A stretch of 43,899 nucleotides of DNA, from positions 1-43,899 of IMG/VR virus record IMGVR_UViG_3300040801_002077. One strand, given 5' to 3'. The notes beneath the pieces are model-generated. The model saw only the letters and a list, made by a program, of their open reading frames with translations, did no database searches and was not told where the DNA came from. Of the stretch, positions 10,495-43,899 are shown piece by piece (positions within the stretch are counted from its first letter, which is position 1; every line of letters begins with the position of its first letter). The DNA comes from a virus. Made by a program: the position numbers and the translations under genes.

Positions 10495-10596
10495 CTGACT
10501 GCTCGGTGACTTCTGACAAGGTGGCAAACGTGGCAATATTGGTTAAATATGTAATTACTTATTGATAACCACCCTTATCACCGAGTTATTACTAGC

Positions 10597-10638
10597 TATA
10601 ATCTTCCCCACACAGGGAAGGTTAGGATATAATCTTCC
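10597..10638 (+). promoter_or_regulatory. Twin TATAATCTTCC repeats, candidate promoters
   Basis: TATAATCTTCC occurs at 10597-10607 and again at 10628-10638, 31 bases apart, in an AT-rich gap. The first has a weak -35 (TTATCA, 10575-10580, spacer 16). CTTCCC/GGGAAG (10603-10608, 10615-10620) form a hairpin between the copies. A transcript from here would end at the terminator at 10730-10762, giving a possible RNA of about 100-150 nt with no gene in it. The rest of 10495-10782 holds no convincing coding sequence. Confidence 0.4.
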
Positions 10639-10729: not shown

Positions 10730-10762
10730 GAGCGCCCACCACCGGGCGCTCGTCTCTTTTTT
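10730..10762 (+). terminator. Rho-independent terminator ending the late operon
   Basis: GAGCGCCC (10730-10737) and GGGCGCTC (10744-10751) form an 8-bp perfect stem with a six-base loop, followed by GTCTC and six T residues (10757-10762). It lies after the last rightward late gene and faces the convergent leftward genes. Confidence 0.85.
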
Positions 10763-10782: not shown

Positions 10783-11142
10783 TTAGCTTTCGTAGCGCCG
10801 GCGGAGAATCTCGGTTTTGATTTCTTGCGACTCGCTACGGAGCATCTGCTTGATTGCCCCGTCGCATTCCGGGCACTGGCTTTCGCCATCATAAACGACG
10901 CGTCCACATTCTTTGCAGGCATTAACTCTCTCATACGCTGCGCCGCTGTCGCCGTCGTCGATCCGTTCCCGGTAACCGCCCCATTGCGTGGTTTGGCTCT
11001 CGATGACCTCATCATCCTCAGCGAGGAAGTCCGCCAGGATGTCCGCGCCAGCACGGCTCATGGTTGTCCCTGCCTCATTGCGGGCATATTCTTTCAATCG
11101 GTAGTAAACCAAATCGGACACGTTGAATGTTACTCGCTTCAT
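10783..11142 (-). CDS. Ribbon-helix-helix-like protein with C-terminal zinc ribbon
   Basis: The protein has 119 residues. The N-terminus MKRVTFNVSDLVYYRLKEY followed by MSRAGADILADFL has the strand-helix-helix pattern of MetJ/Arc-type DNA-binding proteins. A zinc ribbon follows at about residues 75-95: CKECG then CPEC, two C-x2-C pairs. The start overlaps the stop of the upstream gene (ATGA), with AAGGA eight bases before the ATG. It is the last gene of the small leftward operon begun by the promoter at 11832-11860. Ribbon-helix-helix proteins usually bind short inverted repeats, so it is a candidate regulator of the palindromes at 11844-11870; that is inference. Confidence 0.65.
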   Translation of the reverse strand: MKRVTFNVSDLVYYRLKEYARNEAGTTMSRAGADILADFLAEDDEVIESQTTQWGGYRERIDDGDSGAAYERVNACKECGRVVYDGESQCPECDGAIKQMLRSESQEIKTEILRRRYES

Positions 11143-11459
11143 TTGTCTTTTCCTTGTGATTTAGTGTAACTTCGCACGTCTTCGTCGCGGCTGTAACCCT
11201 TTCGAAGCCTTGCGCTCATAGCTCCTACGCTAATGCCGACTGCCTCTGCGGCTGCACTTACGGACGGATATTCAACGCCATTCCATACACATGGCTTACG
11301 TTTGTCATTGTTTATAGCGGACTCAATCTCCTCGTCGCAGGTATACCCCCTTTCAAGCCTTGAAATCATTGCTTCTGGGGTCACGCCAACCGCACGAGCG
11401 GCCGCGCTTATCGATTCATATTGTATGCCATTCCATTTGCAAGGTTTTTTGCTTGGCAT
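11139..11459 (-). CDS. Two-module HTH-like repeat protein
   Basis: The 106 residues consist almost wholly of two copies of one module of about 45-50 residues: a C-x-W-N-G-[IV]-x-Y strand start, then [SI]-[IV]-S-A-A-A-x-A-V-G-[VI] (first helix and turn), x-x-x-A-M-x-x-R-L-x-x-G-Y (second helix), and an acidic end T/S-x-D-E. The same module occurs once in 13492-14061 and four times in 14065-14640. The helix-turn-helix pattern suggests DNA binding, with one module per half site or per sub-site. The leader carries the shared element at 11472-11486, and AGAGG lies eight bases before the ATG. No catalytic residues were seen. Confidence 0.65.
   Translation of the reverse strand: MPSKKPCKWNGIQYESISAAARAVGVTPEAMISRLERGYTCDEEIESAINNDKRKPCVWNGVEYPSVSAAAEAVGISVGAMSARLRKGYSRDEDVRSYTKSQGKDK
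11155..11169 (-). repeat. Shared translation-leader element, copy 1
   Basis: Minus-sense TTACACTAAATCACA, directly before the ribosome binding site of the gene starting at 11142. Here it also encodes the C-terminus of the upstream gene (YTKSQ). The other copies are at 11472-11486 and 11788-11802. Confidence 0.8.
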
Positions 11460-11466
11460 GTATAAT
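11437..11466 (+). promoter_or_regulatory. Candidate promoter of an antisense small RNA
   Basis: TTGCAA (11437-11442), an 18-base spacer and a perfect TATAAT (11461-11466) on the plus strand, opposite the start of the two-module gene. Initiation would fall near 11473, exactly at the shared leader element, and a plus-oriented terminator lies 15 bases further on. Confidence 0.5.
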
Positions 11467-11471
11467 ACCTC

Positions 11472-11486
11472 TGTGATTTAGTGTAA
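11472..11486 (-). repeat. Shared translation-leader element, copy 2
   Basis: Minus-sense TTACACTAAATCACA, followed by AGAGG and the ATG at 11459. Its plus-strand complement would be the 5' end of the candidate antisense RNA. Confidence 0.8.
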
Positions 11487-11521
11487 TGCCCCGGACAGTG
11501 TGTGCTGTCCGGGGCGTTTTT
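11473..11521 (+). ncRNA. Candidate antisense small RNA
   Basis: A transcript starting near 11473 would carry GUGAUUUAGUGUAA at its 5' end, then a strong terminator hairpin, about 49 nt in all. This 5' stretch is complementary to the leader next to the ribosome binding sites of three genes in the opposing operon (11155-11169, 11472-11486, 11788-11802). Pairing would be in cis at its own locus and in trans at the other two. The promoter, terminator and complementarity are read from the sequence; the RNA itself is inferred. Confidence 0.5.
11488..11521 (+). terminator. Plus-strand terminator inside a minus-strand operon
   Basis: GCCCCGGACAG (11488-11498) and CTGTCCGGGGC (11505-11515) form an 11-bp perfect stem with loop TGTGTG, followed by G and five T. 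The T-run exists only on the plus strand, although all genes here are on the minus strand, so it must end a plus-strand RNA. Confidence 0.8.
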
Positions 11522-11525
11522 GTGT

Positions 11526-11774
11526 TTATTGTTGGTCGTAATCGACCTTGCGCCACCGGCGCAGATCAGACTGGTACTTTCGCATCTCGGATTCGAGGTT
11601 GGCGGGGGATACCGTCTCGCGGCTGTGGGGAATGTCCGTCCCACGGCGCGTAAAGATCATCTTGTATTCGCCATCCATGTTATCCCACACGGTGACGGTA
11701 TAGCTGCCGCTGGCATAGGTGGCTTCCAGTCCGATGTTTTCTTCGATGGTTTGTAGCTTTTTGGTGAGTTCCAT
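11526..11774 (-). CDS. Small hypothetical protein, first gene of the accessory operon
   Basis: The protein has 82 residues. The N-terminal helix MELTKKLQTIEENIGLEA is followed by strands (SYTVTVWDNMDGEYKMIFTRRG) and a basic C-terminal helix (ESEMRKYQSDLRRWRK). No family was recognised. It has GGAGA nine bases before the ATG and the shared leader element just upstream (11788-11802). It is the first gene behind the promoter at 11832-11860. Confidence 0.65.
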   Translation of the reverse strand: MELTKKLQTIEENIGLEATYASGSYTVTVWDNMDGEYKMIFTRRGTDIPHSRETVSPANLESEMRKYQSDLRRWRKVDYDQQ

Positions 11775-11787
11775 TTTATTAATCTCC

Positions 11788-11802
11788 TGTGATTTAGTGT
11801 GA
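11788..11802 (-). repeat. Shared translation-leader element, copy 3
   Basis: Minus-sense TCACACTAAATCACA, then GGAG and the ATG at 11774. It differs from copies 1 and 2 at one base of fifteen. Confidence 0.8.
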
Positions 11803-11831
11803 TCGGTGCTTTGTTGCTCCGACTTGTGTAT

Positions 11832-11860
11832 ATAATAGCATCAAGTGCTGCACTTGCCAA
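11832..11860 (-). promoter_or_regulatory. Promoter of the 10783-11774 operon
   Basis: On the minus strand TTGGCA (11855-11860), a 17-base spacer and TATTAT (11832-11837) match the sigma-70 consensus at five of six positions each. The -35 box lies between two palindromes, so a bound repressor would cover it. Confidence 0.65.
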
Positions 11861-11870
11861 GTGCAGCACT
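11844..11870. promoter_or_regulatory. Double-palindrome operator
   Basis: A 27-bp perfect inverted repeat, with 13-base arms around one central base, made of two 11-bp palindromes AGTGCTGCACT (11844-11854) and AGTGCAGCACT (11860-11870), five bases apart. It overlaps the promoter of the accessory operon. Two identical dyads one and a half turns apart is the usual layout for a cooperatively binding repressor. Confidence 0.7.
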
Positions 11871-11902
11871 CTAATATTTACGCAATTCACAAACCGGTGT
11901 GC

Positions 11903-12064
11903 TTACTCGGCATTGTCCGGTTGAAAGTAATCGTGGATAGTATCCGGTTTATCTGTGCCGTATCGGTTGATTAGAAACTGGCGCTGTCGCTCCCGGCGCA
12001 ACTCCTCCGCGCACGTTCGGCACCCAAATGTCGGGCCCGTCATTTCTCCGTCCTCAAGATCCAT
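11903..12064 (-). CDS. Small CxxC protein, hypothetical
   Basis: This frame encodes 53 residues from ATG 12064, or 46 from ATG 12043, which has GAGG and GGAG upstream and is the better start. The sequence contains GCRTCAEELRRERQRQFLINRYG: a single C-x2-C followed by a basic helix. It follows the ASCH gene by 17 bases on the same strand. No family was recognised. Codon use resembles the neighbours, which supports a real gene. Confidence 0.45.
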   Translation of the reverse strand: MDLEDGEMTGPTFGCRTCAEELRRERQRQFLINRYGTDKPDTIHDYFQPDNAE

Positions 12065-12081
12065 ATTGTCGTCATGCTCGA

Positions 12082-12510
12082 TTACCGCCTCTCATTATAT
12101 GGATACTCCCATAGCCCTTGCCGACCGCGGACGGTGCTACGTGGGATAATGAGGGATACTCGTAGTCGCCATGCGTAGCGGCCGGGGCGATAGTCCCCGA
12201 CGGCTTGCTCCAGACGGGAGATGTGCGGGAGTACATCTGCGACGGGCTGCACGGACACCAGGCGCACCACGCAGAGCAGCACCCCACGTGGCAACTCGTC
12301 CAGGCTGCCCATGTTGAGCGCGGCGCGGTACGGGTCGAGCAGGGTGCTGGCGAACACACGCCGCTCGTATGCTCCGACGGACTTCCCCGCGTGGATCAGC
12401 AGCCGGTCGCCGGGCTGGATGCAACGGGGTTGGAAGTGGCGCGTCTCGTATTGCTTGATTCCGGCGGCGATCAGGGATGCATAGGGCTGTTTGATCGTGA
12501 GTGCTCTCAT
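12082..12510 (-). CDS. ASCH-domain protein
   Basis: The protein has 142 residues. It starts MRALTIKQPYASLIAAGIKQYETRHFQP and continues with PGDRLLIHAGKSV, the typical beginning of an ASCH domain (K-Q-P-x-A-S-L-I-x-x-G-x-K, then E-T-R). ASCH domains are PUA-like beta barrels that bind RNA or modified nucleotides; some members hydrolyse N4-acetylcytidine. The invariant ExR is present. The gene overlaps the one before it by ATGA and lies in an operon with a second ASCH-like gene (12857-13492). The substrate is unknown. Confidence 0.8.
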   Translation of the reverse strand: MRALTIKQPYASLIAAGIKQYETRHFQPRCIQPGDRLLIHAGKSVGAYERRVFASTLLDPYRAALNMGSLDELPRGVLLCVVRLVSVQPVADVLPHISRLEQAVGDYRPGRYAWRLRVSLIIPRSTVRGRQGLWEYPYNERR

Positions 12511-12860
12511 CGGATGAACTGCCCTTCGCGGTGACGCACTTGGCGCTGCTGCACGTCAACCAGATTTAGCTTTTCGGTCACTTGTCGCAGCATGGATCGC
12601 TGCACCTGGATAGCCAGTTGACGCACGTCGTCCATATGCATATCCATGCCAGCAGTGGTTAACGTTGCGGACATCTCATAATCTTTGCCACTCCAGAACC
12701 ACCCCAGCGGATGCTGACTGACTGGGGATGCATATAGATCCACACGCACGTCTTCTGCCATCCCGTTCGGGTAATCTTCGCGCCAGAGTTCGAGAATACG
12801 AAACGCTAGCCCGTCGTCATCAACGGCACTCCGTTCCCAATGTACCTCAAAGCGCCTCAT
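12507..12860 (-). CDS. Hypothetical protein between two ASCH genes
   Basis: The protein has 117 residues and overlaps both neighbours by four bases (ATGA junctions), so it is translationally coupled. It begins with strands (RRFEVHWERSAVDDDGLAFRILELW) and ends in a helix and a basic tail (LRQVTEKLNLVDVQQRQVRHREG). There are no cysteines or membrane segments. The family was not recognised. Its tight coupling to ASCH genes suggests a shared task. Confidence 0.65.
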   Translation of the reverse strand: MRRFEVHWERSAVDDDGLAFRILELWREDYPNGMAEDVRVDLYASPVSQHPLGWFWSGKDYEMSATLTTAGMDMHMDDVRQLAIQVQRSMLRQVTEKLNLVDVQQRQVRHREGQFIR

Positions 12861-13492
12861 GTTGTGCCGTCCCCTGGCATGAGGTCGCCGGCGTCGTAGG
12901 CGTGCAGACGCTTGGCGGCTTGGGTGTAGGCGGTTTCTACGTCAACGGGCCGGCGGTCGCGGTCGACGATATACCAGCCGAGCCGGTCGTCCCACGCTTC
13001 GATTTGCCACGCGCAATATCCCTGCTCGCTGCCCGCCGATGTCTCGTAGATGCACAAGCGATAGTGCCCCGATTCGCTGCGCTCGTAGTAGTCCCCGTCG
13101 GCAAGGTTTACCTTTTGCCACGGTTCTTTTACAGAATCCTCGACAAGCTCGAACTCAATCACCCAGGCGTGATAGTTCTCCCCGTGCATCTCCCGCCATA
13201 GGTCGACAAAATCGGCGCGGGCGGCGAATCCCTCAGCTTGGACATCCTCATCGGAGATAAGGCGCACGTCCTGCTGGCGAATGCCGGTGATGAGAACGCG
13301 TGCGATGCCCGACTGCCCTCGTCCGGGCTGGACGGCGTAGGTCTGACCAGTGCGGTACTTGCGACGCCCGGAGGCATATTTTAGTAGTGTGTAAGCGTCG
13401 GCAACCAACAGGCGCTCGCCGGGCTTGGCTAGGCGGCGGGTCTGGGTTTTGTCACCGGATAGGACTTTGTCGATGGTGTGCTGGAAGATCAT
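12857..13492 (-). CDS. ASCH-like protein with extra C-terminal domain
   Basis: The protein has 211 residues from ATG 13492, which overlaps the TAA of the upstream gene by one base. The N-terminus IDKVLSGDKTQTRRLAKPGE and the later KYRTGQTYAVQPGRG and ARVLITGIRQQDV match the ASCH layout seen in phage proteins, where K-x-x-T-R-R replaces E-x-R. Residues 125-211 (CIYETSAGSEQGYCAWQIEAWDD) form a separate domain that I do not recognise. It may read or process a modified nucleotide. Confidence 0.7.
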   Translation of the reverse strand: MIFQHTIDKVLSGDKTQTRRLAKPGERLLVADAYTLLKYASGRRKYRTGQTYAVQPGRGQSGIARVLITGIRQQDVRLISDEDVQAEGFAARADFVDLWREMHGENYHAWVIEFELVEDSVKEPWQKVNLADGDYYERSESGHYRLCIYETSAGSEQGYCAWQIEAWDDRLGWYIVDRDRRPVDVETAYTQAAKRLHAYDAGDLMPGDGTT

Positions 13493-14061
13493 TATGCGAG
13501 TTCTCCTGTGTAGGTGGCGGTCGTGTTGGCTTGCAAGTGCCGGCGGACGCGCATGAGTGCAGCGTAGCCGGCGACCTCGTGGCGGTAGTGGTCGTCCTCG
13601 TGCGAGAGGACGATATAGCGGTTGTCCGAGAGGCGGACGGCGAACAGCACCGCGCAAAGTGCGCGGCCCGTGGGTGGGGTGATGTGGCGGAGATGATCAC
13701 CGGGCAGCAGGGCTTCGGCGCGGATACTGCGACCGGTGGACAGGCGGACACCGTAGACCACCCCACGGCGGTACAGACGCTTTTCGATGATGTTGAGCAC
13801 GCGGTAGCCGGACGGGGATAGTAACAGGGGGTATTTGTCCGGATTGCCGGCGACGGCATCCACCGCGACGGGGGTTGTGCGGCGGATGTCGGCGGTGTCG
13901 TGGATGGCGGACTGTGGCATCGGACCGCGCTCCATGTCGGCGTCGCAGGTATAGCCTTTGTCCAGACGCCGGCGCATGGCATCGTAGGTGACGCCTTCAT
14001 GCTCAGCGGCCGCGGTAATTGTCTGATGGCGGATCCCGTTCCAGGTACAGGTCTGGCTCAT
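13492..14061 (-). CDS. One-module HTH-like protein with unknown C-terminal domain
   Basis: The protein has 189 residues. Residues 1-48 are one copy of the C-x-W-N-G repeat module (TCTWNGIRHQTI, ITAAAEHEGVTYDAMRRRLDKGYTCDAD). Residues 60-189 are a different, beta-rich domain (LLSPSGYRVLNIIEKRLYRRGVVYGVRL, FAVRLSDNRYIVLSHEDDHYRHEVAGYAALMRVR) of unknown family. The module may deliver the C-terminal domain to DNA. It stands directly after the four-module protein on the same transcript, with only three bases between them. Confidence 0.65.
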   Translation of the reverse strand: MSQTCTWNGIRHQTITAAAEHEGVTYDAMRRRLDKGYTCDADMERGPMPQSAIHDTADIRRTTPVAVDAVAGNPDKYPLLLSPSGYRVLNIIEKRLYRRGVVYGVRLSTGRSIRAEALLPGDHLRHITPPTGRALCAVLFAVRLSDNRYIVLSHEDDHYRHEVAGYAALMRVRRHLQANTTATYTGELA

Positions 14062-14064
14062 GGT

Positions 14065-14640
14065 CTAGTCCTCCTTTTGAGTTCGCTTCATATCGGCGTC
14101 GCTGGTGTATCCACAGCGGATACGGCGGGCCATCGTGGTCTTTTGAACATTGTTAGCGCGAGCGGCTGCGGCAATAGATGGGTATCGGATGCCGTTCCAG
14201 GTGCATGGGCGCTGTTGCCGCTCTATGTCCTCGTCAGATGTGTAGCCGCTGCGGACACGGTAGAACATGGCGCTATAGGTGACGCCGATTGCTTTCGCCG
14301 CGGCTTTGATGGACGGGTACTCGACCCCATTCCATGTGCACGGCTTGCGTGGCGGGCCGAGCTTAGGCAGATCATCGTCGCAGGTGTAGCCGGCGTTGAC
14401 ATATTTGAGCATGGAGGCGTAGCAGACGTAGTTGGCGCGGGCAGCAGCGGCGATGGTGGGGTACTCGACCCCATTCCATACGCACGGTGTCGCGTTTGGC
14501 TGGTTGAGGTCATCGTCGCCGGTGTGGCCATTGCGGATGCGCTGCTGCATTGTTGCGTAGCTGACCTGCTCGGCGCGAGCGGCAGCCGCTACAGATTCGT
14601 AGCGGACGCCGTTCCAGGTGCACGGTTTCTTTCTGGACAT
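14065..14640 (-). CDS. Four-module HTH-like repeat protein
   Basis: The 191 residues are four tandem copies of the same module of about 45-48 residues. They begin PCTWNGVRYESV, PCVWNGVEYPTI, PCTWNGVEYPSI and PCTWNGIRYPSI, and each contains A-A-A-[RK]-A, then V-x-x-x-[STA]-M and R/Y-[VI]-x-x-G-[YH]-T-x-D-x-D. The variable residues cluster just before the conserved Met (SYAT, CYAS, TYSA, QKTT), where a recognition helix would begin. The single modules resemble helix-turn-helix domains seen beside phage and homing endonucleases. Nothing else is attached. The likely role is multivalent DNA binding. Confidence 0.65.
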   Translation of the reverse strand: MSRKKPCTWNGVRYESVAAAARAEQVSYATMQQRIRNGHTGDDDLNQPNATPCVWNGVEYPTIAAAARANYVCYASMLKYVNAGYTCDDDLPKLGPPRKPCTWNGVEYPSIKAAAKAIGVTYSAMFYRVRSGYTSDEDIERQQRPCTWNGIRYPSIAAAARANNVQKTTMARRIRCGYTSDADMKRTQKED

Positions 14641-43460: not shown

Positions 43461-43899
43461 GTGGCAAACGAGGAAGTCCTCAATCTATTACGGATTGAGA
43501 CCGAAACGGATACAACCGAATTAGAGCGCTCACTGCAACGGTTCCAGCAACTGGCGGACGCCGGCGAGGAAATCGACAACGCGCTGACACGCGTTGGGCG
43601 CAACCGGGCGCTGGACAACATTGCCCGCGATGCGCAGTCCGCGAGTGTGCCGAGCGACCGGTTAGCAACGGCACTGAAAGAAATCGGCGCGTCGGACAGT
43701 GATCTGAAGCGCGTGAGCCGGGAATACGAGCGCATTGGCGACGCGGCGCAGCGGGCAACACGCGATGCCCAGCGGCTATCCGATCAGCAGCGGCGGTTTG
43801 ATGAAACGTCGCGGGGCGTGCAACTCGCCGGCGATGTGCAGAGTAATCTCGGCGCGATCAGCGGGCTGGCGGGGGCAGCCGGGGCCGGCGGCGTGGCCA
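43461..43899 (+). CDS. Tail tape measure protein, 5' part
   Basis: GTG 43461 has AGGAG six bases upstream. The 146 codons visible here include helical, Arg/Asp-rich sequence (TTELERSLQRFQQLADAGEEIDNALTRVG) and then run into the terminal repeat. Joining 43782 to base 1 continues the frame to the stop at 2453. Confidence 0.9.
   Translation, partial: MANEEVLNLLRIETETDTTELERSLQRFQQLADAGEEIDNALTRVGRNRALDNIARDAQSASVPSDRLATALKEIGASDSDLKRVSREYERIGDAAQRATRDAQRLSDQQRRFDETSRGVQLAGDVQSNLGAISGLAGAAGAGGVA
43783..43899. repeat. Terminal direct repeat, right copy
   Basis: Identical to 1-117; see the left copy. Removing it leaves 43782 bases. Confidence 0.97.

Follow-up and report, generated by a model that had tools for sequence, protein, structure and literature searches.

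Three consecutive genes on the minus strand of the uncultured phage genome described here are each preceded by the same short sequence, and in the gap between the first two lies a terminator-like hairpin that points against them, raising the question of what the repeat and the hairpin do and whether they belong together. The genome is IMG/VR record IMGVR_UViG_3300040801_002077, all 43,899 nucleotides of which were analysed and are referred to here as the window. A first-pass annotation had proposed an antisense small RNA that could block the ribosome binding sites of all three genes, an interpretation that our analysis partly supports.

Genome and gene organization of the locus

The window has a direct terminal repeat of 117 bp (positions 1-117 and 43783-43899), and one relative (G002) crosses the joint, so that the genome is circular (or circularly permuted) and, at ~43.8 kb, essentially complete. 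The first of the three genes (11526-11774, 82 aa) has no relative that we could find in IMG/VR. The second (11139-11459, 106 aa) contains two NUMOD/HTH-like 'CxWNG' repeats, and its stop codon overlaps the start of the third (ATGA). The third (10783-11142, 119 aa) has a CxxC...CxxC segment that is zinc-ribbon-like and falls below the Pfam cut-offs; the structure model of its product, with a pLDDT of 43, is too poor for use. Two paralogues of the 106-aa protein (11139-11459) are encoded at 13492-14061 and 14065-14640, sharing the unit 'CTWNGVxYxSxxAAA...GYTxDxD', and they resemble the DNA-binding segments of NUMOD/HTH endonucleases without a recognised nuclease domain.

A candidate promoter, TTGGCA-17-TATTAT with TG ahead of the -10 hexamer, precedes the 82-aa gene on the minus strand (11832-11860), and its -35 hexamer is flanked by twin palindromes, AGTGCWGCACT, 5 bp apart (11844-11870). 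The palindromes are likely to be a repressor operator, and together with the promoter they give the three genes the appearance of a separate repressible unit; the twin pattern has no exact match in viral contigs. Beyond the unit, ~150 nt of non-coding DNA are enclosed by a plus-strand TTATCA-16-TATAAT (10575-10602) and a T-run hairpin (10730-10762), with short blocks in the vicinity that are kept in another relative (G001); the region could encode a further small RNA, or it could serve as a late terminator or as a site of attachment or replication.

A repeated leader precedes all three genes

The minus-strand sequence TTACACTAAATCACA occurs in two exact copies and a third with a single change, one ahead of each gene. 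Copy 1 (11155-11169) and copy 2 (11472-11486) are exact and lie 12 nt, counted from the last base of the repeat, from the ATG codons of the 119-aa gene (start 11142) and the 106-aa gene (start 11459) respectively; copy 3 (TCACACTAAATCACA, 11788-11802) lies 13 nt from the ATG of the 82-aa gene (start 11774). The Shine-Dalgarno sequence (SD) is directly downstream of the repeat in all three leaders, and the repeat is therefore situated as it had been annotated, beside the three ribosome binding sites. It is asymmetric, in gene orientation, and at a near-constant distance ahead of the ATG of non-structural genes. Copy 1 is also coding, spanning codons 97-102 of the 106-aa gene. No fourth copy with three or fewer mismatches is present in the whole 43.9-kb window.

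Chance similarity of the leaders was rejected, because the 13-mer common to three of the ~86 SD-bearing starts, at the same offset, stands alone in a k-mer comparison: no further 11-mer is common to three leaders in this set, which is a crude one, and a back-of-envelope expectation for such a 13-mer triple is ~1e-8. Tandem gene duplication was also rejected, as the three genes have no obvious common sequence beyond the leader, and so was a sigma-70 -10 element within the repeat, since TACACT has no -35 partner as judged by eye.

A candidate promoter and terminator oppose the genes

On the plus strand at copy 2 we find the promoter-like TTGCAA-18-TATAAT (11437-11466; hexamers at 11437-11442 and 11461-11466), which matches at ten of twelve positions (only four of six in the -35) a general consensus from which the promoter rules of the host may differ. 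Its -35 sits within the opening codons of the 106-aa gene, and its TATAAT is in the AT-rich spacer between SD and ATG; a perfect TATAAT is found on the opposite strand at two of the 86 SD starts. The plus strand of the window contains three sites of this quality (10/12), and from 10602 to the terminator this is the only promoter-like site that scores at least 9/12. Transcription from it would begin on the second base of the copy 2 complement, at 11473, so that at the level of sequence the annotated promoter and start hold up.

The predicted intrinsic terminator (11488-11521, plus strand) begins 22 nt past the -10 hexamer and consists of a perfect 11-bp stem (11488-11515) with nine GC pairs and a 6-nt loop, then GTTTTTG (GTTTTTGTG, with five T). 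Its orientation, opposed to the genes, was likewise borne out: a d'Aubenton-Carafa-type score gives +19.6 for the plus strand against -15.9 for the minus strand, and we rejected the hairpin as a minus-strand terminator on the latter value. A promoter and terminator at such spacing occur once in the window with both strands scanned, in none of 20 shuffles, and nowhere in 1.05 Mb of other DNA despite 1,407 promoter-like sites scoring at least 9/12, although these figures flatter the unit because the criteria were fixed after the case was seen. By the controls run, the pairing of promoter and terminator is not chance.

Predicted structure and pairing of the candidate RNA

The promoter and terminator together define a candidate antisense RNA of ~49 nt (11473-11521, plus strand), with a single-stranded 5' tail of 12-15 nt followed by the terminator hairpin. 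The predicted start falls at the edge of the repeat, so that the free tail corresponds almost exactly to the repeat. A 50-nt RNA folds at -28.7 kcal/mol, compared with -10.8 in shuffles (z = -7.5), and its first 12 nt are predicted to be unpaired. No Rfam family matches it at the gathering score.

Pairing of a 15-nt tail with the three leaders is predicted at -20.5, -20.2 and -17.4 kcal/mol, and the next SD start reaches -12.9, so that the three leaders are the best targets among the SD starts, with a gap of at least 4.5 kcal/mol to all others. When folding of both partners is counted, the cofold gain is -46.7 kcal/mol for the cis duplex with the 106-aa leader, and -16.7 and -15.5 for the trans duplexes. 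Pairing in trans with copies 1 and 3 is no independent evidence, however, as it follows automatically from the repeat. The SD of the 106-aa gene (11468-11471) is outside an RNA starting at 11473, and the pairing ends ~1-2 nt from it; the candidate RNA thus abuts the SD, within reach of the 30S subunit, without masking it directly. The predicted pairing with the three leaders agrees with the proposal that one RNA blocks all three ribosome binding sites, which is weakened by a pairing that ends short of the SDs and by the coding position of copy 1.

Relatives of the locus

Searches with all three proteins in IMG/VR, and with the 106-aa protein or its region in GTDB genomes, phage records and plasmids, yielded only two close relatives, G001 (37.6 kb) and G002 (30.7 kb). 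G002 is 99.9% identical to the window and ends at 13802, before the three-gene locus; other terminase relatives are 46-59% identical and uninformative for the locus. G001 is the sole relative that reaches it, and has retained the 106-aa gene starting at codon 8-9, with copy 1 matching at 15 of 15 positions. Copies 2 and 3, the promoter and the terminator are absent, as 11437-13260 is missing there; relative to the window, a clean deletion (L001, 4980-5030) fuses the 106-aa gene, at its codon 8-9, with the gene that occupies 12857-13657. Homology ends on one side at 11436, ~8 codons inside the 106-aa gene, and on the other at 11144, at the start codon past copy 1, where a different gene follows.

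The perfect copy 1 in G001 is suggestive and not significant, because in the aligned 106-aa genes 43 of the 76 codons that encode identical residues are themselves identical. Conservation of repeat and terminator in relatives had been named as a check on the annotation, and what G001 offers is the repeat in coding form with neither terminator nor promoter. This comes near to what the annotation had named as refuting it, relatives with the leaders but no promoter and terminator; as the G001 copy is coding, with no proper leader and another gene next, this genome neither supports nor refutes an antisense RNA. No relative carrying the promoter-terminator unit was found in IMG/VR, GTDB or phage records. 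Exact matches to the 15-mer number 39 stretches in viral contigs, chance-like except for G001, and a search for the pattern of leader, SD and ATG gave five single, unrelated matches.

A proposed antisense RNA and the competing explanations

The best explanation of these features is in our view a short antisense RNA of the P22 sar type that acts via the repeated leader, a reading suggested by sequence that we put forward tentatively and at somewhat less than an even chance. The 82-, 106- and 119-aa genes would constitute a single short, repressible unit transcribed from the promoter at 11860-11832, and the plus-strand promoter and terminator in the gap that separates the 82-aa gene from the 106-aa gene would yield the ~49-nt RNA (11473-11521), whose hairpin would be the terminator and whose free 5' tail would be perfectly complementary to the leader repeat. 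In cis, the whole of this RNA would pair with the 106-aa mRNA leader, much as P22 sar does with the arc-ant junction. Because the leader is repeated, its 12-15 nt tail could in addition reach the 82-aa leader in trans; trans pairing with the translated copy ahead of the 119-aa gene is less credible. A duplex beside the SD may hinder 30S loading or recruit RNase III, so that leaky expression of the unit would stay low. Repression of the third gene (119 aa) in trans is the weakest part, since copy 1 is translated and ribosomes would strip the RNA. We infer that the RNA is transcribed and terminated, that it represses, and that it acts in trans. In favour of the antisense RNA are the uniqueness of the unit in the window, the directional terminator, the unpaired tail, and the ranking of the three leaders as top targets; against it are the position of the TATAAT in an AT-rich SD-ATG spacer, the -35 that matches only 4/6, the unpaired SD, the coding nature of copy 1, and searches that turned up neither an Rfam match nor a relative carrying the unit. 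The broader claim, that one self-encoded antisense RNA silences the whole operon through a leader duplicated before every gene, as a multi-target form of P22 sar with repeat and RNA having co-evolved, we regard as doubtful.

The main rival is that the repeat is a start-associated leader element comparable to the SAS of cluster K mycobacteriophages, a site of translational or mRNA control to which a protein, the ribosome or a different RNA would bind, with the hairpin a feature of the minus-strand mRNA (spacer, processing or stability) and the plus-strand promoter and T-run incidental. We judge this to be on the unlikely side. A spacing to the ATG that is fixed at 12-13 nt across three unrelated genes agrees with it, as do the short asymmetric form of the repeat by the SD, its restriction to non-structural genes and the single inverted repeat upstream, all of which recall SAS and ESAS (PMC3203893), and G001 retains copy 1 at 15/15 without the antisense unit. 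It leaves the directional terminator and adjacent promoter unexplained, however, and there are only three copies, whereas SAS number 11-19 per genome and include the SD. Next is the explanation that a plus-strand RNA is produced whose effect is confined, in cis, to the gap separating the 82- and 106-aa genes, by antisense pairing or transcription collision, the repeat being a separate matter. The same promoter and terminator evidence applies to it, and the duplex with the 106-aa leader is far the stronger (a cofold gain of -46.7 versus -16.7 and -15.5 kcal/mol), but it does not account for a predicted start at the edge of the repeat or a free tail that is almost exactly the repeat, and we consider it distinctly improbable.

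Two further explanations were considered. Short common leaders could be recombination boundaries at which cassettes are swapped at start codons, as the end of G001 homology at 11144, with a different gene beyond, would suggest; this is a single instance, the other end at 11436 lies inside a gene and not at a leader, and the promoter and terminator are unaccounted for; we regard the idea as very improbable. Less probable still, and barely credible, is a stoperator-like operator: copy 3 reads TCACA-N5-TCACA, a direct repeat spaced by 10 bp that could suit a dimeric repressor, and the unit encodes an HTH-like protein, but the first half is TTACA in copies 1 and 2, a DNA site needs no constant distance to the ATG, and a better operator is present at the promoter (11844-11870).

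Discussion

The sar RNA of Salmonella phage P22, 68-69 nt long, is transcribed from a promoter directed against its operon and ends in a terminator hairpin. The layout described here is of the same type at the sequence level, with a promoter and terminator opposite the operon in an intergenic gap. Both are short antisense RNAs, a candidate one in our case, located between two genes, and both belong to an operon of a moron-type unit that is under repressor control in P22 and probably so here (PMC7968456, PMC2629481). The sar RNA is complementary to the ribosome binding site of the gene that follows; the candidate is predicted to pair with the 15 nt immediately ahead of the SD. In P22, sar and two protein repressors control ant within the 'ant moron' (PMC2629481, PMC7968456), and a separate repressible unit would be consistent with an additional lock at the RNA level, as in P22 immunity I. 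The candidate RNA differs from sar in being shorter (~49 nt), in having a tail that matches a leader repeated before three genes, and in a pairing that abuts the SD, where that of sar covers it; there is no sequence or gene relationship between the two, and ours is a prediction from sequence.

Lambda OOP, likewise a short antisense RNA that ends in a terminator and belongs to a regulatory region of its phage, overlaps the end of cII, whereas the RNA proposed here would pair with a set of repeated leaders. OOP and P22 sar are both listed in PMC13397905. In what would otherwise be an RNA of a known type, the repeated target is likely to be the new element.

The SAS of cluster K phages have a 13-bp consensus, GGGATAGGAGCCC, that contains the SD and is present in 11-19 copies per genome (PMC3203893). 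The leader repeat resembles SAS and ESAS in being short and asymmetric, in one orientation, at a near-fixed distance from the ATG of non-structural genes, and in having one copy with an inverted repeat directly upstream (PMC3203893). It differs in its sequence (TTACACTAAATCACA), in having the SD outside, and in being confined to three copies in one operon instead of spread genome-wide; sequence, copy number and SD position all place it outside the SAS family. We found no description of an antisense promoter or terminator for SAS.

If the antisense reading is correct, a single ~13-nt tail acting against a leader before each gene would be a compact means of silencing a multi-gene phage unit. The authors who described SAS did not decide between an RNA and a protein as their binding partner (PMC3203893), and the locus described here would, if the reading is true, provide a testable answer, in one case, to the purpose of start-associated leader repeats in phages.
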